Of a stretch of 64,000 bases of DNA, positions 801 through 57,359 are shown piece by piece; the stretch's first letter is position 1, and every line of letters begins with the position of its first letter. Origin of the DNA: Symbiodinium natans (lineage: Eukaryota > Sar > Dinophyceae > Suessiales > Symbiodiniaceae); assembly GCA_905221605.1 (NCBI GenBank), contig CAJNDS010002107.1, positions 377,922 to 441,921 of the forward strand, in the 5' to 3' direction. Position numbers and translations under genes: made by a program. Below the pieces are notes generated by a model. That model did not search any database. It was not told the origin of the DNA and was given only the letters and a program-made list of their open reading frames with translations.

Positions 801-852
801 CCCTAGAACACTAAGCCCTAAACCCTAAACCCTAGAACCCTTTAACCCTAAG
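801..852 (-). repeat. Interstitial telomere-like array, CCCTAAA on plus strand
   Basis: A short degenerate array of CCCTAAA/CCCTAGA units read on the plus strand, equivalent to TTTAGGG on the minus strand. It is the first telomere-like array in the window. Confidence 0.85.
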
Positions 853-972
853 ATTTCTAAGAAGATGAACTTGCAAGAACGTAGGGAACCCCCCCCAAAA
901 CGGGCTCAAGCTGCCAAATAAAAATAGCTCTGTACGAAGGCTGCCCGCCTTGCTCTGCGCAGCTGCCGCGAG

Positions 973-1064
973 GTTTAGGGCTTAGGGTTTTAGGGTTTAG
1001 GGTTTAGGGTTTAGGGTTTAGGGTTTAGGGTTTAGGGTTTAGGGTTTAGGGTTTAGGGTTTAGG
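973..1064 (+). repeat. Interstitial telomere-like array, TTTAGGG
   Basis: About twelve nearly perfect TTTAGGG units, with one TTAGGGC and one TTTTAGGG variant at the left edge. It lies 120 bp from the oppositely oriented array at 801-852. Confidence 0.95.
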
Positions 1065-1118
1065 GGAAGTGCAGCGGGAGCTTGCGGTGTAGGATTTGGG
1101 GTGGCTCAGGGTACTAGA

Positions 1119-1655
1119 AATTGCAGGGTTTCGAGTTTAGGGTGCAGAAGTTTAGGGTTTTTTGTGGTACTAGTAATTATAGGGGTTTAGGGTTGAGGGT
1201 TGAGGGTGCAAGCGCGCAATCGGCAAAATCATACAACTCCAAGTAGAGAGGCCTCTGGCAGTGACCCATCAACACTTGTCCAGCCCAGTGCCTAAACATT
1301 CTTCCCGAAGACAGACCCAGGTCATGTGCAACTACGTTGGGTTTAGGATTTAGGGTTTAGGGTTTCGAAACTTGTAAAACCCCATTTGGGGAGGGGAGTT
1401 AGGATTTCAGGTTTAGGATTTTGTAGGATTGTAGGAACCTCTATGTAGAACAAGCGGAGTGATTCATGACATCACCTGGGACACCCCGCGTCCGGAGAGC
1501 GGAGCTCAAAACCTCGAAAGCCCTAAACCCTCATGCTCAACGTGTGGAGGGCGTCGTGTTCGCGGCGCAAAACCTCTGTTACGTTCACAGCATAGCGTTG
1601 GGTTTCGGGGTGTAGTTCAGGGTTTTGGATTTAGGGTTTAGGGTGTAGGGTGTTG
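1119..1655 (+). repeat. Scattered degenerate TTTAGGG motifs
   Basis: Small clusters of one to four TTTAGGG-like units at about 1123-1208, 1337-1420 and 1599-1652 are embedded in otherwise unique sequence. No gene is recognised between them. Confidence 0.7.
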
Positions 1656-1895
1656 GGCTATGGGCTTCGAGCAGCATGCGCTGACAAGAGGGCGCCGAAA
1701 TTCACTGGTGGGTGTATCCCCCTACCCTCTCGTGCGCTGGGATGGCGGGATGTGGGGCAATCTTCTGGCGTTCAGGCTTGAAGCCATCACGTCTGGGGCA
1801 AGAGGGTCTCAAAATCCGATCGCGGTTCCGCGTAGATCAGGCGCCTGACACTTTGCAGCGACGTCCAGAGTACGTGATCTTGGTGGAGGCAGAGA

Positions 1896-1919
1896 AACCC
1901 TAAACCCTAAACCTTAAAC
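1896..1919 (-). repeat. Short CCCTAAA array
   Basis: Three CCCTAAA/CCTTAAA units. Between here and about 2700 the sequence is mostly unique, with two more short CCCTAAA clusters at about 2296-2320 and 2617-2642 and a GCAGCTGC palindromic stretch near 2089-2110. Confidence 0.8.
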
Positions 1920-2548
1920 GCATGGAAACGGACGTCAAAATTTGGGTCACCTGATCTTGGCCGGCTTACAATGGCAAGCCTGTACCTTGCTTGTCGTTGC
2001 CGAAACCCATTGTAGCATGCCGAAAAGGGCCCGATCCGGTTTGGGTAGGGATTCGGGGGGGGGTTGGGAGGTACTGCGGGTTTCCGCCAGCAGCTGCAGC
2101 TGCAGCTGCCCAAAACCTGATGAGAGGTTGCTTGAAAAGTCTCGGGCTTTGGGTGTGGTGCGCAAGCTTCCTTCGGAGTTTTTCCAGCAACCTCCGAATG
2201 CGGCTCGGGTTGCAGAAGGTCCCGTGACGACCAAGGACAAGTCTGCACACTTAGCGACTTTGCATCCTTACATACACCGATACCCCTGTAAGCACACCCT
2301 AAACCCTGTACCCTAAACCCCTATGCCCATCGCCGGATCCCGCCCCCTTCCCCCCCCTCTGTGGTTTGGGTTAGGCTTCAGGCCACCATGCAGGTGCCCT
2401 TGCGGAGGATATCCTATGTAGAGCCCTTGTGTATACTCGCGTATCTCCTCTATACACCTCATAGCTGTATCTATGTACCGAGATGTCGATGAATACACCA
2501 TATACACAGGCTTCTATTCAATTCTGCGTATCTGTCTATCTGTTTTCT

Positions 2549-2566
2549 TATATATATATATATATA
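2549..2566. repeat. (TA)n microsatellite
   Basis: Nine TA dinucleotides, followed by CA/CG-rich alternating purine-pyrimidine sequence to about 2600. Confidence 0.9.
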
Positions 2567-2704
2567 AACACACGCACACCCACGTACGTGCGCGCGCGAT
2601 CTATACTCCCATCTAAAAAAAAACCTAACCCCTAAACCCAATATTCAGAGTCAAGGGCACAGTAGCAACGACTGGGTGGCTCTGTTGGATGCTCTGAACA
2701 GGCT

Positions 2705-2825
2705 TTTGGGTTTAGGGTAAGGGGGGTAAGGGGTAAACGGGGTAAAGGTGATGAAGGGGGTAAAGGGGGTGAAGGGGGTGAAGGGGGCAAAGGGGGTAAG
2801 GGGGTTGAGGAGGGTTAAGGGCATT
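2705..2825 (+). repeat. 9-bp G-rich repeat, GGGGGTAAA/GGGGGTGAA
   Basis: After one TTTAGGG unit the sequence becomes a run of 9-bp units with a GGGGG core (GGGGGTAAA, GGGGGTGAA, GGGGGCAAA). It looks like a telomere-type repeat that has drifted in unit length. The frame through it encodes a VKG repeat, which I regard as fortuitous. Confidence 0.8.
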
Positions 2826-3510
2826 GGTCTTGGGGCTCAGAGGCGGTCAGCATGCACTCTCATGCACTCTCGGGATGATAAGACGTCCCGTGACATCCAG
2901 TCTCACGCGTCGTCAAAGCCTTCGAGATTGGGGTGTTAAGTTAGGACCCAACAAATCACCGGGATTTTCTGTGAAACCTCCCGAGGTCGCGTGAATTGTC
3001 GGCCTCATGTTTTTTTCGCGAAATGGGCGTGTCTCAATTTTCCAAGGCATGTTCTGCATGGCTCCGCTATACTCAACCATCTTGGTGATTACGAGCTCGC
3101 ACCGAGTATTGAGACATATCCAAAGCAGAGATTCCCAAGCCATGGTGCATCGAGTCAGACAACCACCGCTGAGCACCATGCATGTTGTTTCGGCATAACC
3201 CCTCTAAACCCCCAAAACGCCTGAATCCACAAAACCCCTAAGCTCCCAAAACCCGTGAACCCCCCAAAATCTACATCAAGTTGCACAGTCCAGGGCACAA
3301 GTACCCTGGGCTCATAGGGGAACCCAAGGCCGCAGATTTCAGGTGGGTTGAGATGCGCAGGCGTAGGATTTGGGCATCAACCCTAGACCCTAAACCCTAA
3401 GAGCTGCAAAGCAGCAGGAGGAGGACCCTTGGGCTGGGAGAGGTTCCCTGATCAGAGAGTTCCCAACCCTAAACTGTTCATAGAACCTGTAAAGCCTTCG
3501 GAACCTCTAG

Positions 3511-3627
3511 GTTGAGGGTTTAGGGTTTAGGGTTTAGGGTATAGGGTTTAGGGTTTAGGGTTTAGGTTTTGGGTTTAGGGTTTAGGGTTTAGGGTTTAGG
3601 GTCTAGAGTTTAGGGTTCGGGGTTTGA
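3511..3627 (+). repeat. Interstitial telomere-like array, TTTAGGG
   Basis: About fifteen units, most exact TTTAGGG, with TATAGGG, TTTTGGG and TCTAGAG variants. Confidence 0.95.
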
Positions 3628-3714
3628 GACTTGCGTCCGACTCGACCGGTCCTGGGGATCTGTTGAGATGGGCTTCGGCTGTTCTGAACCTGGTCGGAAC
3701 AGCTTCAGCATCTG

Positions 3715-3821
3715 CTACTAGTTGCTTAAGAACCCCCAAAAATCCAAAATAATCATCCCTATCCTAAACCCTAAACCCTAAACCCCATATTGCTATGTGG
3801 GGGTTCTTAAGCAATTCGTAG
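3715..3821. mobile_element. Short palindromic element carrying CCCTAAA inside
   Basis: Two 24-bp arms (3715-3738 and 3798-3821) are inverted copies with two mismatches; the arm core is TTGCTTAAGAACCCCCA. The 59-bp interior contains about three CCCTAAA units. The structure fits a MITE or its relic. No target duplication is evident. Confidence 0.65.
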
Positions 3822-3949
3822 TCTGTGGGTCTCCGGAGGAGTCCGAAGGGGTTCTGCGTCCAAGCATACGCCATGCTCCACAACGGCGTCTGTATATACA
3901 CGTTGCGCTCCGCCGCTGCGCACCATCACCCGGGCGTTAGCCGTGCCCT

Positions 3950-4061
3950 CAGGGTTTAGGGTTTAGGGTTTAGGGTTTAGGGTTTAGGGTTTAGGGTTTA
4001 GGGTTTAGGGTTTAGGGTTTAGGGTTTAGGGTTTAGGGTTTAGGGTTAGGGTTTAGGGCTA
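3950..4061 (+). repeat. Interstitial telomere-like array, TTTAGGG
   Basis: About fifteen units, almost all exact TTTAGGG. It is one of the least degenerate arrays here. Confidence 0.97.
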
Positions 4062-4660
4062 GAGCCCCAGATCTATCAGACCTCGTAACTCGGGCCGAAA
4101 GGATATGACGCTGTCCTTGCAACAAGGGGGGGGGGTGCCTTCACTGCCAGTACCTGCTACAGCTGATGTGGGATCCTGCTAGTCTGCAGATCGTGAGGTC
4201 TCCAACTTTGTAGAAGGCTGTGTGGCTCAAAGCCCCCCGGAGTGAGAAGAAGGCTGGGCATAAACCCTAAACCCTAAACCCTAGACCCCTAAACCGCTTC
4301 GAAGATGCCGGCTCAGAGGCTACGGGTCACGGTGCTACGGTACGCCAGAGGCAGCGCAGCAGCGAAGCACGGGAGACCCACACACTCCGAGCTCGGAAGG
4401 CGCTTTGTTTTATCGTGAAAGGATGAAACCGTCCCATCGAAGGTTCCCTAAAATATCCCGAAAGTATGCGATATCCCTCATGAATCGAAGAATACCCCAA
4501 ACTTTTGCGGGGACCTTCCGTGCGCTAAACCCAGAAATTTCCAGCCACCTGGGCCGCTTCCATAGCCCAAGGGGTTGCTGGGATGACCCAGACGGGCACT
4601 GGACGGAGGAGTATTTTAGTCCGCATCACGTAACCTTCACAGCTTCTGCTATATCATGGC

Positions 4661-4739
4661 AAACCCTTAAACCCTAAACCCTAAACCCTAAACCCTAAAC
4701 CCTAAACCCTAAACCCTAAACCCTAAACCCTGAACCCCA
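4661..4739 (-). repeat. Interstitial telomere-like array, CCCTAAA
   Basis: About ten consecutive CCCTAAA units. A smaller CCCTAAA cluster lies at 4262-4293. The array faces the TTTAGGG array at 4842 across about 100 bp of unique sequence. Confidence 0.97.
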
Positions 4740-4841
4740 ATCATCTGGCCCTCCGGATGCGGTCCGAGCTCGGCTTCCAGGTCGCAGCGTGACTCGTCAG
4801 GGGCAAGGAGCCGGGGAGGCCGGGTCTCCACACCTTTCTCT

Positions 4842-4980
4842 GGGGTTTAGGGTTTAGGGTTTAGGGTTTAGGGTTTAGGGTTTAGGGTTTAGGGTTAAGG
4901 GTTTAGGGTTTAGGGTTAAGGGTTTAGGGTTTAGGGTTAAGGGTTTAGGGTTCAGGGTTCAGGGTTTAGGGTCTAGGGTC
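4842..4980 (+). repeat. TTTAGGG array with a 21-bp higher-order unit
   Basis: Exact TTTAGGG units run to about 4890. Then a 21-bp block (TTTAGGG, TTTAGGG, TTAAGGG) recurs three times, followed by TTCAGGG and TCTAGGG variants. Variant units at regular spacing indicate local tandem amplification after a point mutation. Confidence 0.95.
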
Positions 4981-5782
4981 TCACACTGAGGTTCTGGACA
5001 GGTCCCCTTCTCCGGTCTTCTTTTTTCCATCCCACTATCTTGTATTTAGGGGGACCCTCACTGCCCCACATGGTCCCTTCCTTATCTGGTTTCCCTTTTT
5101 TTTGGAGGGGGGGTGGGGGGGCCAAGGTGATTTGGGGGGTACCCAAAAAAGGGGACCATGACTAAGAGAGCTGACCCTATGGCAAGGAGCGAGCTGGAGT
5201 CGTCGTTTCAGAAACCTCTCTTTGGCATCAACTCCGGCAAGCTGCCGCGACTGCGAGCGGATCGAAGGTAGCTGTTCTACAGGCCTCTGGGAACCATCCC
5301 CATAAACAACGTTGTGGTGACAAATGCCTAAGGAGAGTGCTGTTCTACTGTGTTCTACTGGCCAGCAAGGAATCCGGCGTCGCCCTTGGGAGCCGCATGC
5401 TGACACACACCAAAGTGCGAGGACAACGTAAACGTCGCAAAGGCAAGTGCCCAAGGAATCAAACCCAACACTTACCAAACTCCTGAAAACCATCGAACTC
5501 AAGCAACTTGACGTGCGATTGAGAAACTCGCTCAAGGACAACTAGGACAGCTCAGCAGATGTAAACCCTAAGCCCCTCGAAGCCCTAAACTCCACGGCTG
5601 CTCCCCAAGCCCTTGCTCCATGGTAGGCCCGCCCCTGGGCAGGGACTTGGTCTGAAGCCTCTGGAGGCGCAGTGCACTCCAGGGGTAGTGTCCAAATGCG
5701 TCTCCGAATTCCTGTCCCGATAGTTGAGCTGGCAAGCTGAAGGGCTGAAGGGTCTGAAGATGCTTTAAGTACAGCCTGCCGG
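4981..5782. other. Unique spacer, possible exon debris
   Basis: About 800 bp with only a short CCCTAAG cluster at 5563-5592. A minus-strand frame stays open over 5035-5541 but lacks an ATG at its left end and has no recognisable motif, so it is not called as a gene. Confidence 0.4.
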
Positions 5783-5853
5783 GCTTAGGGCTTTAGGGCT
5801 GAGGGCTTACAGCTGAGGGCTTACAGCTGAGGGCTTACAGCTGAGGGCTTAGC
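5783..5853 (+). repeat. 14-bp minisatellite CTGAGGGCTTACAG
   Basis: Three full copies and one partial copy of a 14-bp unit, a two-heptamer derivative of TTTAGGG, follow two CTTAGGG-like units. Confidence 0.9.
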
Positions 5854-6194
5854 ACAGGAAAAAATGCGCAAAGCCTGCAGTGGGACCTGATTTCGCGAAA
5901 CGCGCGCATTCAAAGCTGCAGGAAATCTCCCCTCCCCTGTGAAGCACCATGTGTAGCAAAAGAGTGGTGAACAGGTCGAAGATGCTAGCCACAAGTACTC
6001 ACAAAGCCCCTAAGCCCTAAACCCTAAACCCTAAACCCTAAACCATCAGGGGGCCACGAGCCCCAAGTCGCTTACCGCCCTTGGCGGAGACTCGGGGCAA
6101 AGGGAGCTCAGCTGCAATCGGTAGATTTCGGAGCCCGATGGTGCCATGCACGACAGGGTGCCTCCTGCATTCGACCCCCCAATTCCTCTCGTAA

Positions 6195-6360
6195 GGTTTA
6201 GGGTTTGGGGTAAAGGGTAAAGGGCAAAGGGCTTAGCTGTAGGGTTTAGGGTTTAGAGTTTAGGGTTTGGGGTTTGGGGTTTAGGGTGAAGGGTAAAGGG
6301 TACAGGGTTTAGCGTTAGGGTTTAGGCTTTAGTGTTTAGGGTTCGGGGTTTAGGGTTTTC
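6195..6360 (+). repeat. Degenerate TTTAGGG array
   Basis: TTTAGGG, TTTGGGG and TAAAGGG units interspersed with short unique stretches. It is followed at 6408-6505 by a CCA/CTA-type trinucleotide tract. Confidence 0.85.
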
Positions 6361-6507
6361 AAGTTTTCCAACATCACTGTGCGGGGTACGAAAGGAGGTC
6401 ATGACCAGCATCATCACCACCCCAACCACCGCGGCCCCCACTGCTACAACTGCCACTACCACTACGATATACTACTACGGCACTACCATCTTTACGACTA
6501 CGAATCA

Positions 6508-6597
6508 CCCTAAACCCTAAACCCTAAACCCTAAACCGTAAACCCTAAACCCTAAACCCTAAACCCTAAAACCTAAACCCTAAACCCTAAACCCTGT
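6508..6597 (-). repeat. Interstitial telomere-like array, CCCTAAA
   Basis: About twelve CCCTAAA units with single-base variants. It directly follows a degenerate ACTACC/ACCACC trinucleotide stretch. Confidence 0.95.
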
Positions 6598-6699
6598 CCT
6601 GTCTCTGCAAGGGCCCCCTACGGCTTACATGGGCTCGGGCTCGGCTTCGGCTTCATCTTCGTCGGGATCCTCGCGGTTCTGAGGCAGATCCTGGTCGGT

Positions 6700-6850
6700 G
6701 TGGGGTTTGAAGGTTTGGGGGTTTGGGGTTTAGGGTTTAGGGTTTAGGGTTTAGGGTTGGGGGTTTAGGGTTTAGGGTTTAGGGTTTGGGGTTTGGGGTT
6801 TGGGGTTTGGGGTTTAGGGTTTAGGGCTTAAGGCTTGGGGTTTAGGGCTT
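6700..6850 (+). repeat. TTTAGGG/TTTGGGG array
   Basis: About eighteen units mixing TTTAGGG with a block of four TTTGGGG units near 6785-6815. Confidence 0.93.
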
Positions 6851-6940
6851 CCTTGTGCAAAGTTGGGTGCATTAACCCAAACCCTGCAAGAGACTACGAC
6901 ATCCATGGGACAACACGAACCCTAACATTGGGATCATCTA

Positions 6941-7271
6941 TTATAGGGGCCTGAATAATTCGAGTAGGGTTTTGGGGGGTTTATTATATTGTAATTCTAA
7001 AGGGACCCTAAGGGACTACTATTAGTAATTATTCCGATCCCTGTATTGCCCACATACTGCTCTAACCACAGCGGACAACCCTGAATCCTACACCCTGGTG
7101 CCTAAACAACCCTCAAGCACCCAAAACCCTAAACAACCCTCAACCCCGAAAACCCTACACAAAAACTAAAAAAAGGGGTCGGAATAATTACTAGTAGTAT
7201 TCCCTTATGGTCCCTTTGCAATTATACTACAAGATCCCCCAAACCCTATTCTAATTCTAAAGGCCCCTATT
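6941..7271. mobile_element. Long-TIR MITE-like element (family C)
   Basis: The left arm (about 6941-7045) and right arm (about 7171-7271) are imperfect inverted copies about 100 bp long. Shared blocks include ATAGGGGCCT at the tips, AGTAGGGTTTTGGGGGG-like sequence, AAAGGGACCCTAAGGGA and TAGTAATTATTCCGA. The roughly 125-bp interior contains degenerate CCCTAAA. Related single arms occur at 28106-28231 and, more diverged, at about 56310-56400. There is no coding capacity, which fits a non-autonomous DNA transposon. Confidence 0.75.
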
Positions 7272-7390
7272 TGACTGTGGCACGCGTTGTCCCTGAGGGG
7301 CTCTAGGCCGGGCCTCGTCGTCCGAGTCTTCCATAGCACATTGGTGTAAGATGTGGGCCAATCGACAGCCTGCTTTTCGGGTTCTCAGGT

Positions 7391-7532
7391 TCCCTAAACC
7401 CTAAACCCTAAACCCTAAACCCTAAACCCTAAACCCTAAACCCTAAACCCCAAACCCTACGTAAACCCTAAACCCTAAACCCTAAACCCCCCAAACCCTA
7501 AACCCCAATACCCCTAAACCCCCTAAACCCTG
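7391..7532 (-). repeat. Interstitial telomere-like array, CCCTAAA
   Basis: About eighteen units, the first eight exact. The later ones carry C-rich insertions (CCCCCCAAACCC, CCAATACCCC). Confidence 0.95.
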
Positions 7533-8150
7533 TTAAGGGCTCTGGGGGGTCTCCCTTTTCTTACCTCTACCCCATTTTAGCGAATACTTGCTTCCACTTC
7601 CCAGAGAAATCCATATGCAACAAACTGACATCATTCCTAACGGGGCCGATAGATTCAGGGTTCAGGGGTAGTCCCATAGAAGCTACTAGTATGTCCAAAT
7701 CAACCCCAGATACTGTGGTTATCAGCACAGCTTCCAAGTACTACGGTGTAGGTTTACTTGAAGGTTCCTAGGTGGTTCCAAATAGGGTTGCAAGCAAACT
7801 ACCCTAAAACAACGTCGTAACCAAATAGAACTCTAAACGCCCTTCGTATAACCCTACGTACCAGGGTTCTTCGGATTGACGCATAAGTGCTTGGGTCCCA
7901 CAAACCCCTTGCACGCCATACATAGCCATGGAAGGGTTTAGAGAGGCCTCCTCAGGCTAAGGGTTAAGGGTTGAGTCTTTAGGAAAAAAACCGACCTCCG
8001 AAGATGTCCACAAAAGCTGCAAACAGGGAGCCCGCCAAACGAGAAGGCCCCAACAACCAAGTCCACCCTGGATGTCAGAGAGCTTAGGGAGCAGGACCTC
8101 ATAATTGTTCGATGTATGTGGCTCATGGGGTCCCGGTCAGCTGACCGTCC
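7533..8150. other. Unique spacer
   Basis: About 600 bp of unique sequence without telomere arrays, apart from a TTAAGGG cluster near 7960. No gene, RNA or palindrome was recognised. Confidence 0.5.
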
Positions 8151-8225
8151 AACCCTCTAAGCCCTAAACCCTGAGCCCTAAACCCTCAGCCCCAGCTCCA
8201 AGGAGGTTTGAAAAAAGACCCTTCG

Positions 8226-8316
8226 CCCTGAAAGCCTAAAAGCTAAAACCCTAAGCCCTAAACCCCTTAAACCCTAAACCCTAACCCCTAAACCCTAAAC
8301 CCTAAACCCCCCCCCT
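8226..8316 (-). repeat. CCCTAAA array ending in a C run
   Basis: About ten degenerate CCCTAAA units, including CCCCTAA and CCCTTAAA variants, ending in C9. A smaller cluster is at 8153-8190. Confidence 0.9.
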
Positions 8317-8409
8317 AAGGTTGTGTGGGCCTACGGCGTGCCAATCTTTCACGGAGATGGGCTCGAGCAGCTCCTCAGAAGCCAGAGGCCTGAAGCAGAA
8401 TCTGCAGGG

Positions 8410-8481
8410 CTTTAGGGTTTGGGGTTTAGGGTTTAGGGTTTAGGATTTAGGGTTTGAGGTTTAGGGTTTAGGGTTTAGGGT
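8410..8481 (+). repeat. TTTAGGG array
   Basis: About ten units with TTTGGGG and TTTGAGG variants. A short CCCTAAA cluster follows at 8629-8655. Confidence 0.92.
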
Positions 8482-8804
8482 GGAGAGATGATTCGGCTTG
8501 CCTCCAGCCACGGCTGGGACTCACGCCTGGCTGGGAACCCTTGTAAGGCGGGCTGGTCTGGGGCTACTCAAGCACAGCTGCACTTGCTACACAGCCATGA
8601 AGAAATTAGGAGGGACTTCGGGGGAAAAAACCTAAACCCTAAACCCTAAACCCTGATGTCCGGGCCCTGGACGATTCGTTCTGTACATCACACTCTTCAC
8701 CTTCCGCGGATTCCTGGGGCGGCGATGTGGGGGGGGGGGGTCTTGCTTGGCCGTCCCGAGAGTGGCTCCGAAGCCATCGACGTCCGGCTTAGGGCCCAGG
8801 AATG

Positions 8805-8873
8805 AGGGTTTAGGGTTTAGGGTTTGGGGTTTAGGGTTTAGGGTTTAGGGTTTAGGGTTTAGGGTTTAAGGTG
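8805..8873 (+). repeat. TTTAGGG array
   Basis: Nine to ten units with one TTTGGGG variant, ending TTTAAGG. Confidence 0.94.
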
Positions 8874-14898: not shown

Positions 14899-15033
14899 AA
14901 AGTACCCGAGGTGCCTTGGGATGTGCACCCTTTTACAAACAGTCCTGATAGGGATTGTAAGAGGGGGTACTATAATCCGCATTAAGGACTGTTAGTATAA
15001 GGGGGAGCATCCCAACAGGTACCCAGTACCGCT
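14899..15033. mobile_element. Family B MITE-like element, copy 1
   Basis: The core lies at 14916-15015 with inverted arms beginning TTGGGATG and containing ACAGTCCTTA-type and CCCTTATACT-type blocks. Weaker arm similarity (GTACC...) extends to about 14899 and 15033. The centre shares the TTATRGTRCCCCC motif, in opposite orientation, with the copy at 34242-34345. Confidence 0.7.
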
Positions 15034-21059: not shown

Positions 21060-22230
21060 GCAAACCCATTGGGAGCGGCCGAACTGGGCAAATGTCTCCA
21101 CAGTCGATCACCTGAGTGCAGAGTTAGGGCCTTGCAAGGTTGTCTTGGGAGTTTCTGGTTGCTGAAGCTCTCCTTAAGGCGACCGGAAACGTCAGAACCA
21201 GCGACTGTTGCGACAGATCCGCGAGTAGCTTTTGGGGGTGGGGTAGTGCCTGCACTCTGAACCAAAATCCTGAAGCCCACCAAAACCACCGAGCCTGCGA
21301 GAGCTGGCCCTTCTTTCGGAGTCTGGGCGGACGGAGCGTCTTTGTAGGGGCCTCGGGCGGCTCAGCTGCACTCCGGGGGGGGCTATGACGGAAGGAATTC
21401 AAGGGGCCTCCTTGTAAGACTCCTGGGTGCTTCGAAGTGGGGTGCCCAAGACTTCGAAGTTGCAAGAAGCCCGACTTCAGGGTAGGCCCCGTGCGGGAAA
21501 GGCCACGCGGTTGCCGTTGTGGAAAAGCATTGGCTTGAAGCTGTCCGGCACGGTCGGGTGCATCACCGGGCTATTCCGGTAGCCTCACACCGCTGCTTCT
21601 CTCTTCTATTGTTAAGGAGCGGGGTGCGGTTTTGTGCCTGGGGGAGGGGGGTTGGGCCCAAGTTTTCTCAGCTCAGAATACTAAACCCTACACCCTGAAC
21701 CCTAAAGCCCAAACCCTACGTGGTGGGTCGGTTTGGCGGGGAAAGGACTTCTGTGTGCTTGCCGTGCTGCATTAAGTTCAGTGTTTCTGCACGCATCTAT
21801 CTGCTGCAGGTTCTTGTCTGTGAGGGTTAGGCATCGTAGGTAAGGGTTTGTATGAAGTCAGCTTGGAAGATTTGAAGCTGTCGGGGGGCTAAGGGGCTAG
21901 CTCGCACAATGTATAGCGAGTGGAACTGGTCCATTGCCTGTTCATGGTCAGGTGCGCAAGCCGAAGTATGCACAGATGCCCGAAACAATGGTCGGCATAA
22001 AGAAGACAGCCCTTTTTTGTTCTTGTTTGCGGGCTCGTCAACCCCTAAGCCCTAAAAGAAACCGAACAAAAAACCTTACAAGCCCCAAGACCTAAACAAA
22101 TACAAAGTCTTAACCTAAACATCTTGGCACTTGCGCAGGAAACCCGTGGACTTCTGTCTCAGCACGATGGTGGCGGGTGTGGACTACGAGAGCGAGCACA
22201 TCCCATATCCAAGCAATGTTGCCATGAAGC
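21060..22230. other. Mostly unique spacer
   Basis: About 1.2 kb with one small CCCTAAA cluster (21686-21720). Frames are open on both strands over 21100-21470, but none begins with ATG or shows a domain. Nothing else is recognised. Confidence 0.45.
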
Positions 22231-22231
22231 A

Positions 22232-22485
22232 GCGTTTAAGGTTTAGGGTGGTGTAAGGTTTAGAGTTTAAGGTTTAGGGCTCAGGGTGGTTTAAGGTTTA
22301 AGGTTTAGGGTTTAGGGTTTAGGACAAGGAAGCACCCCACATGCGTCTCTTCGGGCAAAGAACGCTCCACGTGTGCGGCGACTCCTTGAAGAACGCTGCT
22401 CCAACAGACTTCACAAACCTGCAGGGTTTAGGGTTTAGGGTTTAGGGTTTAGGGTTTAGGTTTTAGGGTTTAGGGTTTCGGATTA
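22232..22485 (+). repeat. Two TTTAGGG arrays
   Basis: Degenerate TTTAAGG/TTTAGGG units at 22232-22325 and about eight units at 22425-22485, separated by unique sequence. Confidence 0.9.
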
Positions 22486-25661: not shown

Positions 25662-26124
25662 TGTATGTATATATGTATATATGTATATATGTACATATGT
25701 ATATATGTATATATGTATGTATGTATATATGTATATATGTATATATGTATATATGTATATATGTATATAATATGCATATATGTATATAATATGTATATAT
25801 ATATATATATGTATATAATATGTATATATGTATATATGTATATAATATGTATATATGTATATAATATGTATATAATATGTATATATGTATATAATATGTA
25901 TATATGTATATAATATGTATGTATGTATATAATATGTATATATGGATATATGTATATAATATGTATATATGTATATAATATGTATATATGTATATAATAT
26001 GGATATATGTATATAATATGTATATATGTATATATGTATATATGTATATATGTATATATGTATATATGTATATATGTATATATGTATATATGTATATATG
26101 TATATGTGTATAAATGTATATATG

Positions 26125-26172
<48 letters not shown>

Positions 26173-26236
26173 CATGTGTGTATACATACATACGTATATA
26201 TATATATATATATATGTACATATATATTATATTATC
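25662..26236. repeat. TATATG/TATA microsatellite, about 575 bp
   Basis: An almost uninterrupted tract of GTATATAT and GTATATAATAT units with internal higher-order repetition. It ends in (TA)n and TACA units. All long frames through it (Tyr/Ile-rich) are artefacts of the repeat. The tract is self-complementary and could form long hairpins. Confidence 0.97.
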
Positions 26237-34241: not shown

Positions 34242-34345
34242 GTTGTCATGTTCCCCCTTATACTACCAGCCCTTAGTAGGGCTTATGGTGCCCCCGATTA
34301 TGATCCCCATTAAGGACTGCTAGTATAAGGGAGAACATGTTAAGT
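34242..34345. mobile_element. Family B MITE-like element, copy 2
   Basis: Inverted arms of about 38 bp: the left contains CATGTTCCCCCTTATACTA and the right, inverted, CATGTTCTCCCTTATACTAG followed by CAGTCCTTAATGGGG. Arms and centre match the element at 14899-15033. No coding capacity. Confidence 0.75.
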
Positions 34346-46947: not shown

Positions 46948-46985
46948 GGCCCTAAACCCTAAACCCTAAACCCTAAACCCACTCT
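46948..46985 (-). repeat. CCCTAAA array
   Basis: Five exact units. Confidence 0.93.
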
Positions 46986-49110: not shown

Positions 49111-49245
49111 AGGGTGTTTGCGGGCGGATCCTTACAACCCGGCTAGAACCGCAGGTAGTACCCAGATACAGCTGATAGCAACATGCATGGAAACTGAGGG
49201 TGGTGGATACCCAAACCTCAGGATGTACTCAGGAATAGTTCTCAA

Positions 49246-49532: not shown

Positions 49533-49776
49533 AAAAGGCTTAATGGAATGTCCTTTCTTAAAGGGGCACACTGGGCGCCCGAAAACCCTCACGTGGCGAG
49601 CTGGGCGCCCGCGCCAGGAAGCCGCTGCGCATGACGCAGAGAAAGGCTGGGCACCGGCTTTGCTTCATGGGTTCAGGGTTTAGGGTGGGTTCAGGGCCCT
49701 TAAGGTTTCGAGTCTGAGCGTTGGGCATAGCTATCTCTTGAGGGTGGATTGATGTGTAGGAAAAGGAGGAGGAGTA

Positions 49777-49893
49777 CTTGAAGACTCTTGGGTACTTATA
49801 AGTTGGGCTAGAAGTACCCTAGAAAAGGTTTCAACCTACGACAACAACTACCCTCCTTATTTCCTTTCTGATACTTGCCCATGAACCTCCAAG
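49777..49893. mobile_element. Family A MITE-like element, copy 3
   Basis: Left tip CTTGAAGACTCTTGGGTAC plus TTATAAGTTGGGC; inverted right tip CCCATGAACCTCCAAG. Both ends are flanked by TA (49775-49776 and 49894-49895), consistent with a TA target duplication. 117 bp, no coding capacity. Confidence 0.8.
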
Positions 49894-49899
49894 TAGGTC

Positions 49900-50340
49900 C
49901 TTTGTCAGCACCCGACTCAGGTTTGCTGTGGTGCTTATGCTTTACGAAACAAACCTGCTCGGACAGCTGTGCCGCAAGCCCTGCAAATCTCCTGAGCTGG
50001 GGCCGCTGAGCCCATAAGACCACACCAGAGCGAGGCTTCGAAAGGTGCCCCGAGCCGAGGAATCCCAGGATGGCTGGGGGCCCTGGCAGTAGTACATCAG
50101 GTCGGCCACAGAAAGGCCAGCCTCCAGGGAAGCACAACATGAGCTTACGATTCATCGCGCAGCTTAAGCTCCGACTCCTCCCCTTCGGGGCTAAGAGCCG
50201 GCCACGGGGTGACGGCCCCAAAACCGGCCTGCGGCACCACGTAGCCGTTGGTGCTCCCCGCAAGGGTGCACTCGAAGATCTCCAGCCTCGGGGCCCCGGC
50301 CGCCGAGTGCATCCCTCCAGCCAAAACCCTACATCATCCC
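49900..50340. other. GC-rich block, possible exon debris
   Basis: Frames are open on both strands. The minus-strand frame (to 50263) is the more protein-like but starts on a non-ATG codon, and its C-terminal part reads through the family A element at 49777-49893. The plus-strand frame has an ATG at 50070 but is Pro/Arg/Gly-rich. Neither is called. Confidence 0.3.
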
Positions 50341-50454
50341 ATATTTGGGGCTTAAGTTTAGGGTTTAGGGGCTTGTAGGTACATCACGGAGCCAATTGCA
50401 ACAGGGCTCTCGTGCTGCACACTGTCACAACTCCCCCTCAACCCCAAGCCCTGG

Positions 50455-50515
50455 CCCCCAAACCCCACCTCCAAAACCCTAAACCCTAAACCCTAATACC
50501 TCCAAAACCCTAACG
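50455..50515 (-). repeat. CCCTAAA cluster
   Basis: Four exact units and several degenerate ones. Confidence 0.88.
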
Positions 50516-51450
50516 AAGGGTCTGGGGATCCGGCATAGCGGCCGCCTCACCACCTGGGGCAAAGAGCCGTTGCCTGGCCGCCTCCTGGAGTTGAAAAGGC
50601 GCACTCTCTCTGTGCGCGTGAGTGGGCGCTTCTCTCCAGTCTCTTGAGGGGGTTGAGGGCTTGGGGTTTACGGTTTGGGATTTAGGGCTTAGGGCATTGT
50701 CATTCTTGTGATTTTGAGCAATCAACTCATGGTCCGCTGCGTTCCGCTGCGTAGACCAGAATTGGTGGAAGGGGCTCTGAGCCGACGCTGGGGGGTCCAG
50801 CCGGCCACCAGTGTGTAGACGGGGAGTCGGGGCGGCACTGAATTTACAGGGTCCTTTTTTGGGGACCTTTGTTTTGACTCCCGATCTTGTGGGAGCCGGG
50901 GAACGCGAGCTCAATATAGCTCAATCAAGAGGACGAGCAACTGGCAGTCGGCCGGTTTTGCATCCGAAGATAGCCCCCGAAGAAATTGTGTAACAAGCCT
51001 CTGTCTCGTAGCTCCCCCCGCCCCAAGTCGCTCTAGGCCAGACCCAGCCGTCACCTCGCAAATCCGGCACCACACTGTGGCTGTCTAACACACGTACACA
51101 ATAGGACTCCATCTGCCTTCAGCGCAACCTGTGCCCGTAGACTTGAGCAGGAGCTTTCGTGATCAAGGGAAGCTTCGGAGCTTCGACGGTTTAAGGGATT
51201 CGCACGCCAGGAAGAAACCAAAAACACTGCCCAGATCATGCTGGAAGCTCGAAGAATCTCCTCACTACGAGCCATTGAAAACCCTTCCACGACTCAAATA
51301 CCCTCAACACTCAGGTAGACAAGACCCACAGTCCTTCTGCTGCTGGCCCTGGATCCTCTGGTGTTGGATTTAAGATGAGTTATTCAGACAAGTGCTCGTG
51401 GTGCACATCGCAAAGACAGGCCTACCTACGTGCGTAAGCATATATACGTA
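50516..51450. other. Unique spacer
   Basis: No telomere array except a few TTTAGGG-like units near 50660-50690. Short frames are open on both strands at 50811-50993 and 51050-51290, without recognised motifs. Confidence 0.4.
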
Positions 51451-51602
51451 TGCATATGTCCATGTCTGTGTCTCTGTCTATGTCTGTGTCTACGTCTATG
51501 TCAATGTCTTTGTCTCTGTCTCTGTCTATGTCTATGTCTATGTCTATGTCTGTGTCTGTGTCTGTGTCTATGTCTATGTCTATGTCTGTGTCTGTGTATA
51601 AA
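51450..51602 (+). repeat. TCTGTG/TCTATG hexanucleotide array
   Basis: About twenty-four 6-bp units with TCTGTG, TCTATG, TCTCTG and TCAATG variants. Confidence 0.96.
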
Positions 51603-51984
51603 TGTATAGTATATGCACATATACATACACATAGGATGTTTTCGTTATGTGTTTTTATACGTGTTTAGCGATCTATTGCATTTCCTTTTGCCAAGGACTT
51701 GGATCAGCCGGGCTTTAGGGTTCCACACTTCTTTGGGGGCCGGCTACAGCAGACTGGGAAGCGAATTGTCATCAAGACCTCAAGAACGCGGTGCCGGAAA
51801 TTGGGCAGGCCGCCGCAGCAAGAGCTTACACTGAACCCTAAGCTTGAAACCCTAAACCTGAAACCCTAAGCCCTAGCCTTCCCACATCATCAGATGCCAC
51901 AACCCGGCCTGTAAGTAGGCGCTAGGAGTATCCACAAATCATCGAACGCATCCATGATCTCATCTACCTGGTCGGATCTGCATG

Positions 51985-52350
51985 AGGTTTAGGGTCTCGG
52001 GGTTGGGGTTTTGCAGTCTGAGGTTTAGGGTTTAGAAGGTTTGGGCTTCTGCTTCAGGGCTTCGGGCTTAGGGTGTAGGGTTTGCCATAAGATTTGGCTT
52101 GGGTCCGGCATCAGCATCCTACAAACGTTTAGGGTTTAAGGTTTAGGGTTTAGGGTTTAGGCTTTAGGGTTTAGGGTTTAGGGTTTAGGGTGACAACGGA
52201 GGCCTTGGCCGCGACCAGCGGATCAGTTGGGTAAAGATATCGGCCTGGGCGTTGCAGGCTTGGTAGCTGCTATGGTTGGCTTGTTCCACAAGGGGCTCAA
52301 CGTTTAGGGTTTAGGGTTTAGGGTTTAGGGTTTAGGGTTTAGGGTTTAGG
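51985..52350 (+). repeat. Three TTTAGGG arrays
   Basis: Degenerate at 51985-52090; nine units at 52130-52195; seven nearly exact units at 52300-52350, with unique sequence between. A short CCCTAAA/CCCTAAG piece lies at 51835-51880. Confidence 0.92.
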
Positions 52351-52621
52351 GCCTAAGTTCCACGAGTGCTGAGGCTTTCTTTGTTCATGGAACGATCCAG
52401 ATACCCATGAAACCCGTTGTGGAGGGGTTGAAGGGTTGGTTGGGGGCGTCGGAGGGGGGGGGGTGGGCGATGCCTGTGGCCCTAAACACCCAACCCGCAC
52501 CCCTGAACCCACCGTTGATCTGAGGTCCCTGGGCTTCTGGCCATTGAAGGGCGTGACCTTGCCAACGTACCTTGCACGCAAAGACTCCCCCAAACAAAAC
52601 AACTACCCCACCTCCCTGTGG

Positions 52622-52735
52622 GTTTTAGGGTTTAGGGTTGAGGCTTTAAGGTCTGGGGTCCAGGGTCTAGTGGCCTAGGGTCTGGGTCTAGGGTCAAGGG
52701 TCAAGGGTCTAGGGTCTAGGGTCTAGGGGTCAGGT
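52622..52735 (+). repeat. TCTAGGG/TCAAGGG array
   Basis: About fourteen units in which TCTAGGG replaces TTTAGGG, with a TCAAGGG pair. Confidence 0.92.
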
Positions 52736-53100
52736 GGAAGCCGTTCTTATGAAACTCAAGGGCCCATGTCTCAGAACCTTTTAAACAAGGTAAGGGGCCA
52801 CAGTCACATAAAGCCTCTACCCCCTTCCGAACCTTCGGACCCAAGAAAACAAAGACAAATTCAGCTCTCCCAAGGATACGAGAGGTCAACCCCAAGAACC
52901 CCCCCCCTCCTGTTGGGGCCTCAGGATCGCTTTGGTCTGTGCCAGCGGCTTCCCATCGATGAGGAGCACCTGCATCGTGGCTCAGGGGACTCCAAAAACG
53001 ATGTGGGGGGCGGGGGGCGGGGAATTCCAGTTCCTACATAAGGCATGCCCAAGCATTTCTCCGGAGCTGTGGAAACATCGCATCCTCCATCCGCCTCTCA

Positions 53101-53634
53101 TTGAAATTGGCTGAGTTCCTGGCTGGAAGCTGGTGGTACGGCGCTGCCTCAATCGACAGAGGTTTCGTGCAAATGATGCTTGTGGCAGGTCCGAGGCCTA
53201 AGTACTCAAACTTGCCCCAAGGATTGGACTTCGAACCCCAACACCCCCAACACCTGTGTAGCTTCGATTCTCAGCTGCCGAACTCTCAGGGCTGCGGCCT
53301 GCTTCTCCTTGCCCTCCCACTCGTCAGCTGGCGTGATGCGCAATGCAGTTTATCCAGGCTCGGCTGGGGTTTGAAGGTGCTGGGGGCGGCGAAGCAGCTC
53401 CGAAGATTTGGGGGGCTTGGGCTTGGGGAACATGAGGAAAGTACCCTGGCCACGCAAGCCCCGCAGGCCCCGGGCCCGCACAAACCGTCACGACAAAGAC
53501 TCAGACATCTCACGACAAGAACCCCCCAATACCCAAGCTGCCTCGAAATCGTACATCCTGGAAGTCATACCTGTCAGAAAACAGAATGTCGAAGTCTTTG
53601 GGCGAGGGGCTTACGGTTTGGGGTTTGGGTTTAG
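53101..53634 (+). CDS. Hypothetical open frame, about 177 codons
   Basis: A plus-strand frame with a TTG at its left end, so it would be an exon rather than a complete gene. The first 90 codons (EFLAGSWWYGAASIDRGF near residues 5-22) look protein-like. The last third becomes Arg/Pro/Gln-rich and ends in WARGLRFGVWV-type residues that come from telomere-like DNA. The antisense frame over 53286-53513 is also open. No family is recognised. Confidence 0.22.
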   Translation: MKLAEFLAGSWWYGAASIDRGFVQMMLVAGPRPKYSNLPQGLDFEPQHPQHLCSFDSQLPNSQGCGLLLLALPLVSWRDAQCSLSRLGWGLKVLGAAKQLRRFGGLGLGEHEESTLATQAPQAPGPHKPSRQRLRHLTTRTPQYPSCLEIVHPGSHTCQKTECRSLWARGLRFGVWV

Positions 53635-53654
53635 CATAGGGTCTTGTGCTTACG

Positions 53655-53730
53655 GATTAGGGTTTAGGGTTAGGGTTTAGGGGCGAGGGGTCAGGGTTTA
53701 GGGTTTAAGGTTTAGGGCTTTTACAGGTGT
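53655..53730 (+). repeat. TTTAGGG cluster
   Basis: Seven degenerate units. Confidence 0.88.
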
Positions 53731-53889
53731 TTTGGGGTTCGGAGTCCCACTTGCTCCGTGCTCGATATACCGAACCTGTCACAACCCGAGGACTGTGACA
53801 TATTGACAACGGCCCGGCCCTTGCCAAAGATGTGCCCAGGATCCGAGAGGTTCCAAAACCCGACCCCGGTTTCGGGTTTAGGGCTTCTG

Positions 53890-54000
53890 TATCCCTAAAC
53901 CCTGAACCCTAAACCCTAAACCCTGAACCCTAAAATCCCTAAACCCTGAACCCAAAACCCTAAACCCTGAACCCTGAAGCCTAAACCCTGAACCCTACAA
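53890..54000 (-). repeat. CCCTAAA/CCCTGAA array
   Basis: About fifteen units with CCCTGAA nearly as common as CCCTAAA. A TTTAGGG cluster follows at 54120-54160 in the other orientation. Confidence 0.93.
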
Positions 54001-54591
54001 CCGCCAATTTCTCTGGTGAGCCCCACACACACTTCACAGAGGGCCCCCACCCACCAAGGACCAGCGCCAAGCGGATCACCTCCCCTCGGCCTAGCACGTC
54101 GCCGGTTTTGAGATTTTTGGAGTTTAGGGTTTAGGGTTTAGGATTTAGGGTTTCGGGTTACGATTCTGAACATCCACTGGGGTAGGGGTCAGAGCAGACA
54201 GGCTATCCCACCCACCGTTGCTGCAAACCCATGGCCGTTCTATCTCGGAGAACCAAGGGAGCAGGGCAATACCCGGGCTTCCGTCTCTTGACGCACATAC
54301 GGGCCACGTCTGCATCCCTTCGCTTCCTAGCCCCAAACGGCAGCCTTGCTGTGCAGACGAAAGTTGTCAGACACAGAACCGATTTTGGACTCGTACCGGC
54401 AACCTCACAAACCTAACTCGCATCATGGAAGCCGACGCACATACACTTGACATACAGCTGAATGACGAGGACAAGTGCATGTGCCACTGAAGGTCTCTTC
54501 AATCATGTGATGAACCGCCATGATAGAGTTGCAACCTACACGCACGCATCATGCAACCATGTCAGCTCGATGCACCACATAAAGCATGCAA

Positions 54592-54612
54592 ACACACACA
54601 CACACACACACA
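54592..54612 (+). repeat. (AC)n microsatellite
   Basis: About ten AC units, followed by AAGCAAACAC motifs. Confidence 0.92.
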
Positions 54613-54885
54613 AGCAAACACACAAGCAAACAAAAGAGCACTTGTGGCCTGCAATGTCGAAATACTTGAGGACAAGCTTCCCTTTCGGCTTCGCGGGCGG
54701 GCTGAAACCCTCAAAGCCTGGGCAAGCTGGGGGCGAAGTGAGTCTTGGACGTGGTGCTAGCACTTCAGGGATTCCTGCACAGTAAAGCACAGCTAAACCC
54801 GTGCTCACTTCCGCTGAGGCCGCCACAACTGCTGTTGCCACCCATGTTGAACAGTTTCTGATGAAGGGCTTCTCGCCAAGTTAAC

Positions 54886-55230
54886 TTGATTCATCAAAGC
54901 GTCTGCGCTTGGAGCAAATCAAGACAAACAAGTTGCAATTGTGCAAAGCTTGCAGCACGCAGAAAATTCGGAACTGGGAACCATCTCATGCTTCGGTGCA
55001 AAGAGCTGGAGAAGCTGTTTAGAAACGGATACATGCAAGCACCCGCAATTGCGAGACCATATCAGAAATATACTGCCCATGCTGACAAGCTTTGGGACAA
55101 AGATTTCCCACACGTTCTGGCATCTGCAGCGTCCTCGGGGCCCTGTGATCAACACCCCAAGCCACACGTTTCCAGGTTGAGGAGCTTAACGTTGGTAGCC
55201 TCAGCAGGACAAACGTCGATCCAACAATAG
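54886..55230 (+). CDS. Hypothetical exon candidate, about 114 codons
   Basis: The plus-strand frame ends with a TAG at 55228-55230 and begins on a TTG. It has a mixed charged composition with an amphipathic stretch (RCKELEKLFRNGYMQAP near codons 37-53) and no repeat-derived residues. It lies in a telomere-repeat-free island. Overlapping frames are also open here, so both frame choice and reality are uncertain. No family is recognised. Confidence 0.25.
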   Translation: MIHQSVCAWSKSRQTSCNCAKLAARRKFGTGNHLMLRCKELEKLFRNGYMQAPAIARPYQKYTAHADKLWDKDFPHVLASAASSGPCDQHPKPHVSRLRSLTLVASAGQTSIQQ

Positions 55231-55306
55231 GGAACCATTCCCAAGACTGGTTGTTTTTCTTCTCCATAGGCGCTAGCCGAACAAGCTCTGATCCTCTCGC
55301 AGGCGC

Positions 55307-55708
55307 ATGCCTGATCGGCAAGTTCTGTTGCATGAATTTGTTGCTGATTTAGGAGCATGTCTGGGGCATTCCTGCCAACATGCTCCGCGTTCATCTGCAC
55401 CGAATTCAGCCCCTTCCGTTGTGCACGATTCCCAGCCTGTGTTCAGCAGCATTTGGAGCTTGAAGCTTCAAGGGTCGGGGTCTGTGTTCCAAGGGGTTGC
55501 CAGGGTTGCAGGTCCTGTAGCAAAGGCCGGGAAATGTGACCAACGGTTGAGTGAGAGGTCTCCAACAAGCCCTTCCATCCCGCATCATCCCTTGCACTTG
55601 GCACAAAAAAGTCGCGATGTGGAGCAACACGCTGTAGAGAATGTGGATGATGCTACGCGAAGCCTTACGGGGTTTGCAGGAGTATCTGCCTTCTCTGTGA
55701 AGTTCTGA
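55307..55708 (+). CDS. Hypothetical protein or exon, 133 codons, ATG start
   Basis: ATG at 55307, TGA at 55706-55708. Codon usage is mixed, with no repeat-derived residues, and composition is protein-like: Ser/Pro-rich centre, acidic helix near codons 110-120 (VEQHAVENVDDATRS). It is the most credible of the small frames because it has an ATG, a clear stop and lies in a repeat-free island (54.2-55.9 kb) with the frame at 54886-55230 just upstream. No domain is recognised. Confidence 0.33.
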   Translation: MPDRQVLLHEFVADLGACLGHSCQHAPRSSAPNSAPSVVHDSQPVFSSIWSLKLQGSGSVFQGVARVAGPVAKAGKCDQRLSERSPTSPSIPHHPLHLAQKSRDVEQHAVENVDDATRSLTGFAGVSAFSVKF

Positions 55709-55964
55709 TACGCAAGCTCAATTGCGCAGCAAGTGCTTACTGCTCAGGCACTTGTGGAAGTGCGGATCTGGATGGACATGTGGCACCCATAACGCTGCTT
55801 AGATGGCCTACTGCATGATACAAGCTCGTTCTGGCATGGCAGAGTTTAAGATACGGAGGGACCCCTGGAAGGGCCCTGAATCTTATTCCCCTATAAAACC
55901 GCTATATCCGTCGACCCCAGCTTGAGCGGGGGCGGTGTCAGTGAAGACCGGAAGTCTTCGGTTT

Positions 55965-56030
55965 CAGGCTTAGGGTTTAGGGCTTGGGGTTTAGGGTTTA
56001 GGGGACGGGTTTAGGGTTTAGGGTCCCCGT
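55965..56030 (+). repeat. TTTAGGG cluster
   Basis: Seven degenerate units. Confidence 0.88.
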
Positions 56031-56309
56031 AAACCACTTGTGAACTCAGCAAGCTAACCAAAGTCCCGCCATCCGAGAGCCCAGTCATCTTGGCACCATG
56101 TCTCAAGACCCCGGTAAGCCTTCGGATCGTGGGACTGACTTAGGAAGGGCTACTAGGGGGGTCTATATGGGTTTTGAGGGTGAGGGTTCAAGACTTTCGG
56201 GCGTCTGACGTAGGCTCTGGGGTTTTACGGGTGTTGGATTTAATGAATCATTAGATATGGTTCCTGTTAAAGGGTGCCTTCAAGGGGTTGCTACAAGGGA
56301 TCTAGAATG

Positions 56310-56400
56310 GTACTATAATAGAGGAGCCTTTAAAACATGAGAATAAGGTTTTGGTGGATATTATATCACTAAAATCCGGACCCCCAAAAAAGTATTCGTA
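56310..56400 (+). mobile_element. Possible diverged family C element
   Basis: GAGGAGCCTTTAAAACATGAG, read with its following AATAAGGTTTTGG and GATATTATAT blocks, keeps the order of blocks seen in the family C left arm at 6941-6990. Identity is modest and the other end is not found. Confidence 0.35.
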
Positions 56401-56462
56401 ATCATTTAGGTCCCTGTCCCCAACCAAAATAGGATTCGTAATCATTAAGGTCCCTGTCCCTA
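56394..56462 (+). repeat. Two 40-bp direct repeats
   Basis: ATTCGTAATCATTTAGGTCC and ATTCGTAATCATTAAGGTCC start at 56394 and 56434; each is followed by CTGTCCC. Confidence 0.92.
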
Positions 56463-56972
56463 AACCTTCAACCCTAAACCTGAAACCCTAAACCCCCCCA
56501 AACCCCAGCCCTAAACCGTCTAAACCCAAACAAACTTAGCCCGCAAGCCTCCAAGAAGCCCTGCTCGACACTATCCCTTAGAATTTCTTGAGATCTGTAT
56601 ACCCGGTTTAGGGTTTAGGGTTTAGGGTTTAGGGGTTTAGGGTTTAGGGTTTTGGGTTTTGGGGTTTAGGATTTAGGGTTTAGGGTTTAGGGTTTCGGGA
56701 CCTCAAAACCTCCATTTTCATGACCGAAGGCAGGGGCTTCATAGTTGAACCTCTCAGCTGCAGTCAACCCTGCGACCTTTCCGGACCTCGGTTTAGGTAG
56801 AATATTTGTTTTGCAGCCCGGACCCCTATGCTTAGGGTTTCGGAATTAAGGGCTAAGGGTTTAGGGTGTAGCATGTCAGGCTAAAACCTCAAAATCCCTG
56901 CATCGTCCCTAAACCCTAAACCCTAAACCCTAAACCCCAAACCCCAAACCCCAAACCCTAACCCTAAACCCG
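56463..56972. repeat. Four small arrays in alternating orientation
   Basis: CCCTAAA-like at 56463-56525, TTTAGGG at 56610-56700 (about eleven units), TTTAGGG-like at 56835-56875 and CCCTAAA/CCCCAAA at 56908-56972. Confidence 0.9.
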
Positions 56973-57359
56973 AGAAATTCGTCGCAAGAACCCATCCACT
57001 CCACTTGTGCCCACACCATTTGCTCACCTTGTCGGGCTGCCCGGCTCTTTGGGGCGAGGGCCCCGGACCACAGGGACTCGAGGTTAAGGGTCCTGGGGAA
57101 GCTCTCCGACCTTGGGTGATGGGGTTTAGGGTTACATGACAGTAATGCGTGAAACTCAATTAAGATACCCCCAATCCACGCTAAAGACTTGAAAAACAGA
57201 AGCACATCTGGAGGACACCTCAAGACAATGTAGGATCCCGGCCTGCTTCCGGAGCGTCTGCAGAAGCTTTCACACAGGGCTGCTCTTGCGATCGCAACAC
57301 CGTGACAAGCTTCGCCAAGACCATGGAAAATCACATGCAAAAGCTAAACAGCTAAGAGG

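Follow-up and report, generated by a model that had tools for sequence, protein, structure and literature searches.

Telomere-type arrays frame exon-sized spacers throughout the Symbiodinium natans genome and may have given rise to introns

Why should the interior of a dinoflagellate chromosome be studded with short telomere-like arrays that point now one way and now the other? The question is raised by a 64-kb stretch of the Symbiodinium natans genome, bases 377,922-441,921 of contig C1795 (hereafter the window; coordinates without a locus label refer to it), in which TTTAGGG, the dinoflagellate telomere unit according to PMC11453091 and PMC11508785, recurs on both strands. A sequence-only reading of this DNA had proposed repeated independent insertion or repair-associated synthesis within a chromosome interior, and the location agrees, since the window lies away from the left end of its contig. 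We find that such arrays occur throughout the genome and that their alternation in orientation is non-random and frames exon-sized spacers. We propose, at a probability of roughly 0.6, that telomeric DNA was inserted at staggered breaks, that some insertions became introns, and that splicing filtered the orientation of the arrays that remain.

Chaining of exact 7-mers covering at least 10 bases gave 196 TTTAGGG/CCCTAAA clusters in the window, 106 on the plus strand and 90 on the minus strand, and telomere-unit 7-mers cover 13.1% of its length. The seven clusters for which positions and strands had been quoted are all correct, with starts at 816, 972, 3515, 3763, 3951, 4661, and 4843. The sequence-only reading had also counted more than 80 clusters in about 56 kb, rarely more than 1 kb apart and often opposed to their neighbors, and this description holds: 194 clusters of both orientations start within 801-57000, there are 109 strand switches, and 6 of the 195 gaps are longer than 1 kb. 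Counted as tandem arrays of T2-4AGGG units, the window contains 97 plus-strand and 54 minus-strand arrays of at least two units and 44 and 26, respectively, of at least three. Two exact tandem units give 309 overlapping matches over both strands, against 0.01 expected from dinucleotide shuffles. The G+C content of the window is 52.4%; the published genome of S. natans CCMP2548 is given as 761.6 Mb in 2,855 scaffolds with 51.79% G+C (PMC8045281). Searches of the window with ARAGORN and with Rfam at gathering scores returned no matches.

The claim that the window is special did not survive comparison with the rest of the assembly (759,417,921 bases in 2,543 contigs). Three exact units occur 1,185,204 times in forward and 1,184,385 times in reverse orientation (reversed control, 41 and 33), and the density of exact three-unit matches, overlapping ones included, is 2.80 per kb in the window and 3.12 per kb in the 759-Mb genome. 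The dinoflagellate spliced-leader motif has 205 exact copies genome-wide (reversed control, 0), a finding that led us to reject Eimeria, which its telomere-like repeats had brought into consideration as the source. Dense arrays are a property of the whole genome, in which the window is unexceptional. To sample the genome locally, 20 stretches were drawn at one fixed offset from contigs taken at steps; 14 were returned and six contigs were too short, so that short contigs are unrepresented. Telomere-unit coverage averages 8.3% over the 14 stretches (range 0.5-24.1%), with 5,724 plus-strand and 5,764 minus-strand bases, and the arrays are patchy, with one cluster each in L010 and L022, four in L020, and 50 in L017. 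In 138 kb there are 58 perfect arrays with four or more units, which extrapolates to about 320,000 genome-wide from a sample that is small and not strictly random. In the window and genome-wide alike, these are tandem repeats of the telomere unit at non-terminal sites, that is, interstitial telomeric sequences. For S. microadriaticum, simple repeats are put at 5.79% of the genome, and the accessible portion of that source does not mention internal telomeric arrays (PMC8110479).

The orientation of neighboring arrays follows a pattern that the sequence-only reading had missed. Where a CCCTAAA array is followed by a TTTAGGG array, the median spacer length is 115 bp for the window (n = 55), and the other loci give 124 bp (n = 53); spacers of the reverse order are broadly distributed. 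Over all loci, 86 spacers of the CCCTAAA-then-TTTAGGG order measure 75-180 bp, compared with 44.6 (standard deviation (sd) 5.0) when strand labels are shuffled within loci, and the excess is present in the window (42 versus 19.5, sd 3.4) and in the other loci (34 versus 19.8, sd 3.3). For the reverse order there is an overall enrichment at 181-1500 bp, which is less clear when the other loci are taken by themselves. When two exact units are required on each side (one array may give several matches), the whole genome has 194,914 CCCTAAA...TTTAGGG matches 100-130 bp apart and 60,787 in the reverse order, a 3.2-fold difference. The first kilobases of the window illustrate the arrangement: a CCCTAAA array at 816-851 and a TTTAGGG array at 972-1065 enclose the spacer 852-971; after a TTTAGGG array at 3515-3617, arrays at 3763-3785 (minus) and 3951-4058 (plus) enclose 3786-3950; and arrays at 4661-4731 (minus) and 4843-4972 (plus) enclose 4732-4842, the last two spacers being putative exons by size.

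The earlier suggestion that opposed arrays could form hairpins in RNA is supported by folding of the two opposed-array stretches that were examined, an intron of L026 (z = -4.58) and window positions 3945-4300 (z = -3.51), both of which fold better than their shuffles. RNA pairing alone gives no account of the orientation, because either array order would pair.

What the opposed arrays enclose can be seen in conserved genes. Loci L025 to L029 were chosen through a Pfam search for the E1-E2 ATPase; L026 and L028 represent one plus-strand P-type ATPase, whose closest solved structure is a non-SERCA-type Ca2+ P-ATPase (9n10; E = 1.7e-57 and 9.4e-46), and the ATPase match in L027 is probably spurious, that locus carrying methyltransferase exons instead (best match MitM, E = 5.6e-9). 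L015, noticed through an inter-array spacer, has ankyrin repeats recognized by eye. We scored 31 conserved exons from L026, L028, L015, and L027, excluding two probable homology-free exons in L026 and L028 and all of L025 and L029. In these conserved genes the spacer between opposed arrays is the exon, and arrays adjoin exons or form most of an intron. Within 60 bp upstream of the 31 exons, 16 have a CCCTAAA array, two a TTTAGGG array, and 13 none; within 60 bp downstream the counts are seven, nine, and 15. The two sides differ (Fisher p = 0.009 for the 31 exons in four loci) and the bias lies on the upstream side (p = 0.0013); with L015 excluded, the CCCTAAA to TTTAGGG ratios are 12:2 upstream and 5:8 downstream (p = 0.018). 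L025 has two arrays in 7 kb, placed on either side of a candidate exon and oriented as usual.

Base composition is consistent with a similar content for the spacers of the window itself. Opposed spacers of 75-180 bp have a G+C fraction of 0.606 (n = 42), close to the 0.619 of 14 conserved exons, compared with 0.531 in 116 pieces lying between TTTAGGG and CCCTAAA arrays (p = 6e-8); in the other loci the corresponding values are 0.592 and 0.527. Codon scores of opposed spacers under a stricter array definition are clearly above shuffles in the other loci (8.55 versus 5.92; n = 30, gene loci included). The two candidate exons with the highest codon scores among the opposed pairs of the window lie at 6596-6725 on the minus strand (14.4) and at 22121-22239 on the plus strand (12.7). 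A Pfam search with 10 reading frames of the window found no family at E 0.01, and the genes of the window may be divergent, non-coding, or decayed.

The flanks of individual arrays carry a second signal. Comparing 40 bp per side with an expectation from permuted flanks, we found among 371 single arrays 43 direct repeats of at least 7 bp (21.7 expected), 17 of at least 8 bp (6.6 expected), and seven of at least 10 bp (0.65 expected); a cruder test on 375 arrays went in the same direction. Repeats of at least 8 bp number seven versus 2.6 expected in the window, six versus 3.2 in the other loci, and four versus 0.9 in the gene loci, so that some loci show the target duplication associated with break sites. 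These flanking repeats fit the idea of independent, repair-associated insertion. Clean cases flank arrays at L027 5588-5752 (22 bp), L028 1890-1914 (14 bp), L026 5326-5397 and 2528-2587 (10 bp each), and L026 5508-5568 (6 bp), and a repeat of about 15 bp with two mismatches was read by eye at L028 2007-2075. The single clean case in the window flanks the array at 61718-61772 (8 bp).

In five of these cases, deletion of the array together with one copy of the repeat restores a reading frame, and in each a coding exon is split with a direct repeat at its ends, as in introns gained by break repair. Four of the joins were recognized by homology: three in the ATPase, giving NQEVL|VRKLAAVETLG, SDKTGTLTEG|KMTM, and EPGE|ANILK, and one in the methyltransferase, giving NQLLWEE|ATADRLG (the bar marks the junction). 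The array accounts for about 69-91% of the interruption of the coding frame in the five cases. The fifth lies in an unnamed gene of the window, beyond the 801-57000 interval, as a candidate intron of 80 bp at 61713-61792 on the minus strand, with the repeat AGGCAACC at both ends. Its removal joins VEK|ATVILRAF in frame with GC-AG borders; the telomere-type block within it (61718-61772, plus strand) reads as CCCTAAA along the gene, which lies on the minus strand, and the open frames holding the downstream exon (60087-61745) and the upstream exon (61766-62053), both on the minus strand, extend past the proposed splice sites. The repeat contains AG|GC or AG|GT in all five cases, which could serve as both donor and acceptor, and GC and GA donors are described as common in Symbiodiniaceae (PMC11453091). 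The five candidate array introns may be removed by splicing.

Two repeated intron 3' ends were seen in the ATPase loci, one at L026 4764 and 6490 and L028 1875, the other at L026 3966 and 6625 and L028 3904, with arrays in or beside some copies; they probably represent introner families. The 25-bp array of the 14-bp case in L028 lies within the 3' end of an introner, the other two copies of which among the loci examined (L026 4764 and 6490) are uninterrupted.

We suggest the following course of events. During the repair of DNA breaks, telomeric DNA, either synthesized by telomerase or taken from existing telomeres, would have been joined in singly, and such insertions would have accumulated throughout the genome. 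A staggered break within an exon would duplicate a stretch containing AG|GC or AG|GT, and the array plus one copy of the repeat could then be spliced as a new intron, so that an insertion that otherwise introduces stop codons would survive. The remaining arrays would sit inside pre-existing introns, near their ends. With a TTTAGGG array immediately ahead of an exon, splicing would meet decoy acceptors (TTTAG|G) right before the true one, and such arrays would have been lost; CCCTAAA would therefore be favored upstream of exons. The same account may apply to most arrays of the window. Of what the sequence-only reading proposed, insertion, interior location, and the presence of both orientations stand, and what it did not foresee is the alternation that frames exon-sized spacers.

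Several observations weigh against this account. Downstream of the conserved exons orientation is even (p = 0.80), and L029, another P-type ATPase locus, has no array in 7 kb. The excess of direct repeats is limited to a minority of arrays and is absent from the gene loci at 6 bp (8 versus 8.9 expected); some of the long matches turn out to be tandem repeats, degenerate telomere-like ones among them, and AGG occurs with 0.35 of the 43 repeats of at least 7 bp, only mildly above the 0.25 of permuted pairs. A search of the genome for an empty site with one L027 join found solely that locus. Support for coding in the window's own spacers is weak: their codon scores average 6.73 against 6.08 in shuffles (n = 16, stricter array definition), and an earlier comparison gave 6.93 for opposed spacers and 5.75 for shuffles, with pieces of long spacers of other types about as high as the former (6.5-6.9). 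With scores so near those of shuffles, we dropped the codon score as proof of exons in the window.

Other sources for the arrays can be considered. One is a transposase-mobilized DNA transposon of the introner kind whose inverted ends resemble telomeres, with TTTAGGG at the intron's 5' end and CCCTAAA at its 3' end. Introners bearing inverted and direct repeats have been described in dinoflagellates, among them S. microadriaticum, with 4-bp duplications (PMC7789003, PMC9860276, PMC10666404). Introner-like repeated intron ends are present in L026 and L028, where some intron 3' ends also show, by eye, a short AACCCTAAA...TTTAGGGTT motif. Taken as single elements, however, 85 TTTAGGG...CCCTAAA pairs have no excess of flanking repeats (at least 6 bp, nine versus 12.6 expected; at least 8 bp, two versus 1.1), and we rejected the opposed arrays as one inserted element. 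Transposases typically leave duplications of uniform length. The clean repeats here range from 6 to 22 bp, and this variation in length favors staggered-break repair over a transposase. Array flanks in about 200 kb, a small sample, share only the heptamer where an introner family would share copies; a common transposon at the flanks was sought in this sequence, not found, and rejected. We regard the transposon as improbable. Equally doubtful is the expansion of intronic heptamer seeds by slippage or unequal recombination, with no insertion at all. The arrays do differ in length and decay, and the seed-like AACCCTAAA motif recurs by eye in some intron ends, but slippage cannot duplicate unrelated flanks and leaves arrays that split a conserved exon unexplained. 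It also fits poorly, though not decisively, with the non-uniform register at array edges: among 115 G-strand 5' edges and 101 3' edges, starts favor AGGG or GGG and ends favor the position right after GGG or GGGT (p = 0.0017 and 0.0003), which might be a signature of telomerase starting and stopping.

Another possibility is that, at breaks in intron borders, telomerase added caps to the ends on the exon side before these were rejoined, in which case orientation would stem from synthesis and not from a splicing filter. The strongly enriched order CCCTAAA-spacer-TTTAGGG is that of a capped fragment. End-capping predicts a bias on both sides of exons and the small numbers available are 16:2 upstream and 7:9 downstream, so we consider it unlikely, if somewhat less so than the transposon or slippage. 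Finally, the repeat being the dinoflagellate telomere unit, the window might be a subtelomere or an assembly chimera of telomere fragments. This is scarcely credible, given the similar density on both strands genome-wide and the conserved multi-exon genes that run in order through such arrays on other contigs.

Further repeats were noted in the same loci. One dispersed element, about 100 bp long, is shared between loci: it occurs in the window at 14915-15015 and 34248-34338, and at L021 8479-8579, L017 1158-1247, and L010 7481-7565, where it is palindromic. Inverted repeats resembling miniature inverted-repeat transposable elements were seen by eye at about 3719-3820, enclosing a short CCCTAAA array, and at 57686-57785. 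A long tandem tract of the TATGTATA type spans 25664-26232. Toward the right end of the window, a coding tandem duplication of 606 bp (57880-58485 and 58501-59106; 99.0% identical) occupies 57880-59106 in a long frame on the minus strand that has no Pfam match. The neighboring minus-strand frame contains, at 60788-61283, diverged repeat units with about 75-91% identity, and a pure CAA tract of about 540 bp (62770-63307) creates long homopolymer reading frames in several phases. L026 55-2247 is a tandem-like repeat block that reads FKDFKDF and LKILKIL in opposite frames, and tandem repeats spaced by about 166 bp occupy L014 4917-6203, within a stretch whose G+C fraction is only 0.333.

Returning to the insertion of telomeric DNA at staggered breaks, the nearest parallels are mammalian interstitial telomeric sequences, break-repair introns of Daphnia, and dinoflagellate introners. 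Mammalian interstitial telomeric sequences arise at double-strand breaks, and target duplications accompany 3 of 66 loci in horse, 6 of 130 in rodents, and 4 of 25 in primates (PMC7215372, PMC2246262); like them, the S. natans arrays are internal and inserted singly, and at some loci the changes in their flanks include target duplication. The difference is one of scale and of site. For humans the same sources list 229 loci with four or more units and few mismatches, 31% intronic and none exonic, and that count uses a looser definition than the one behind our extrapolated figure of about 320,000 perfect arrays; in addition, some arrays here appear to split exons. The absence of human exonic insertions has been attributed to stop codons, and the effect of intronic ones on splicing was posed as a question (PMC7215372). 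In Daphnia, introns have been gained by repair of staggered double-strand breaks, with 33 direct repeats of 4-12 bp (PMC4202315, PMC3443670). The present cases share the insertion into an exon and the repeat of the exon end at the far end of the new intron, and they differ in the telomeric nature of the insert and in one repeat of 22 bp; the string "telomer" is absent from the main texts of the two Daphnia papers. With dinoflagellate introners (PMC7789003, PMC9860276, PMC10666404) the arrays have in common that introns are gained through insertion, that direct repeats mark the borders, and that inverted repeats at intron ends could form hairpins, but introners form families of similar elements, whereas the arrays share only the heptamer, act singly, and can sit inside introners. 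Telomeric insertion and break-repair introns are thus each known, and we found no paper in an open-licence library that combines them, linking telomere repeats with intron creation, or that describes the Symbiodinium arrays; the introner study of Roy et al. 2023 may mention them.

On a broader and more tentative view, which we hold to be possible though less likely than the account above, telomeric DNA would be a major raw material of introns in this alga, break repair, perhaps at breaks induced by introners, would have seeded a large share of them, and splicing would make insertions into exons tolerable. If the insertion of telomeric DNA at staggered breaks is borne out, it would link interstitial telomeric insertion with the gain of spliceosomal introns, in a genome that offers very many cases. 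Insertions into exons seem to be tolerated there as introns, and the questions about stop codons and splicing that were raised by work on mammals would become testable.

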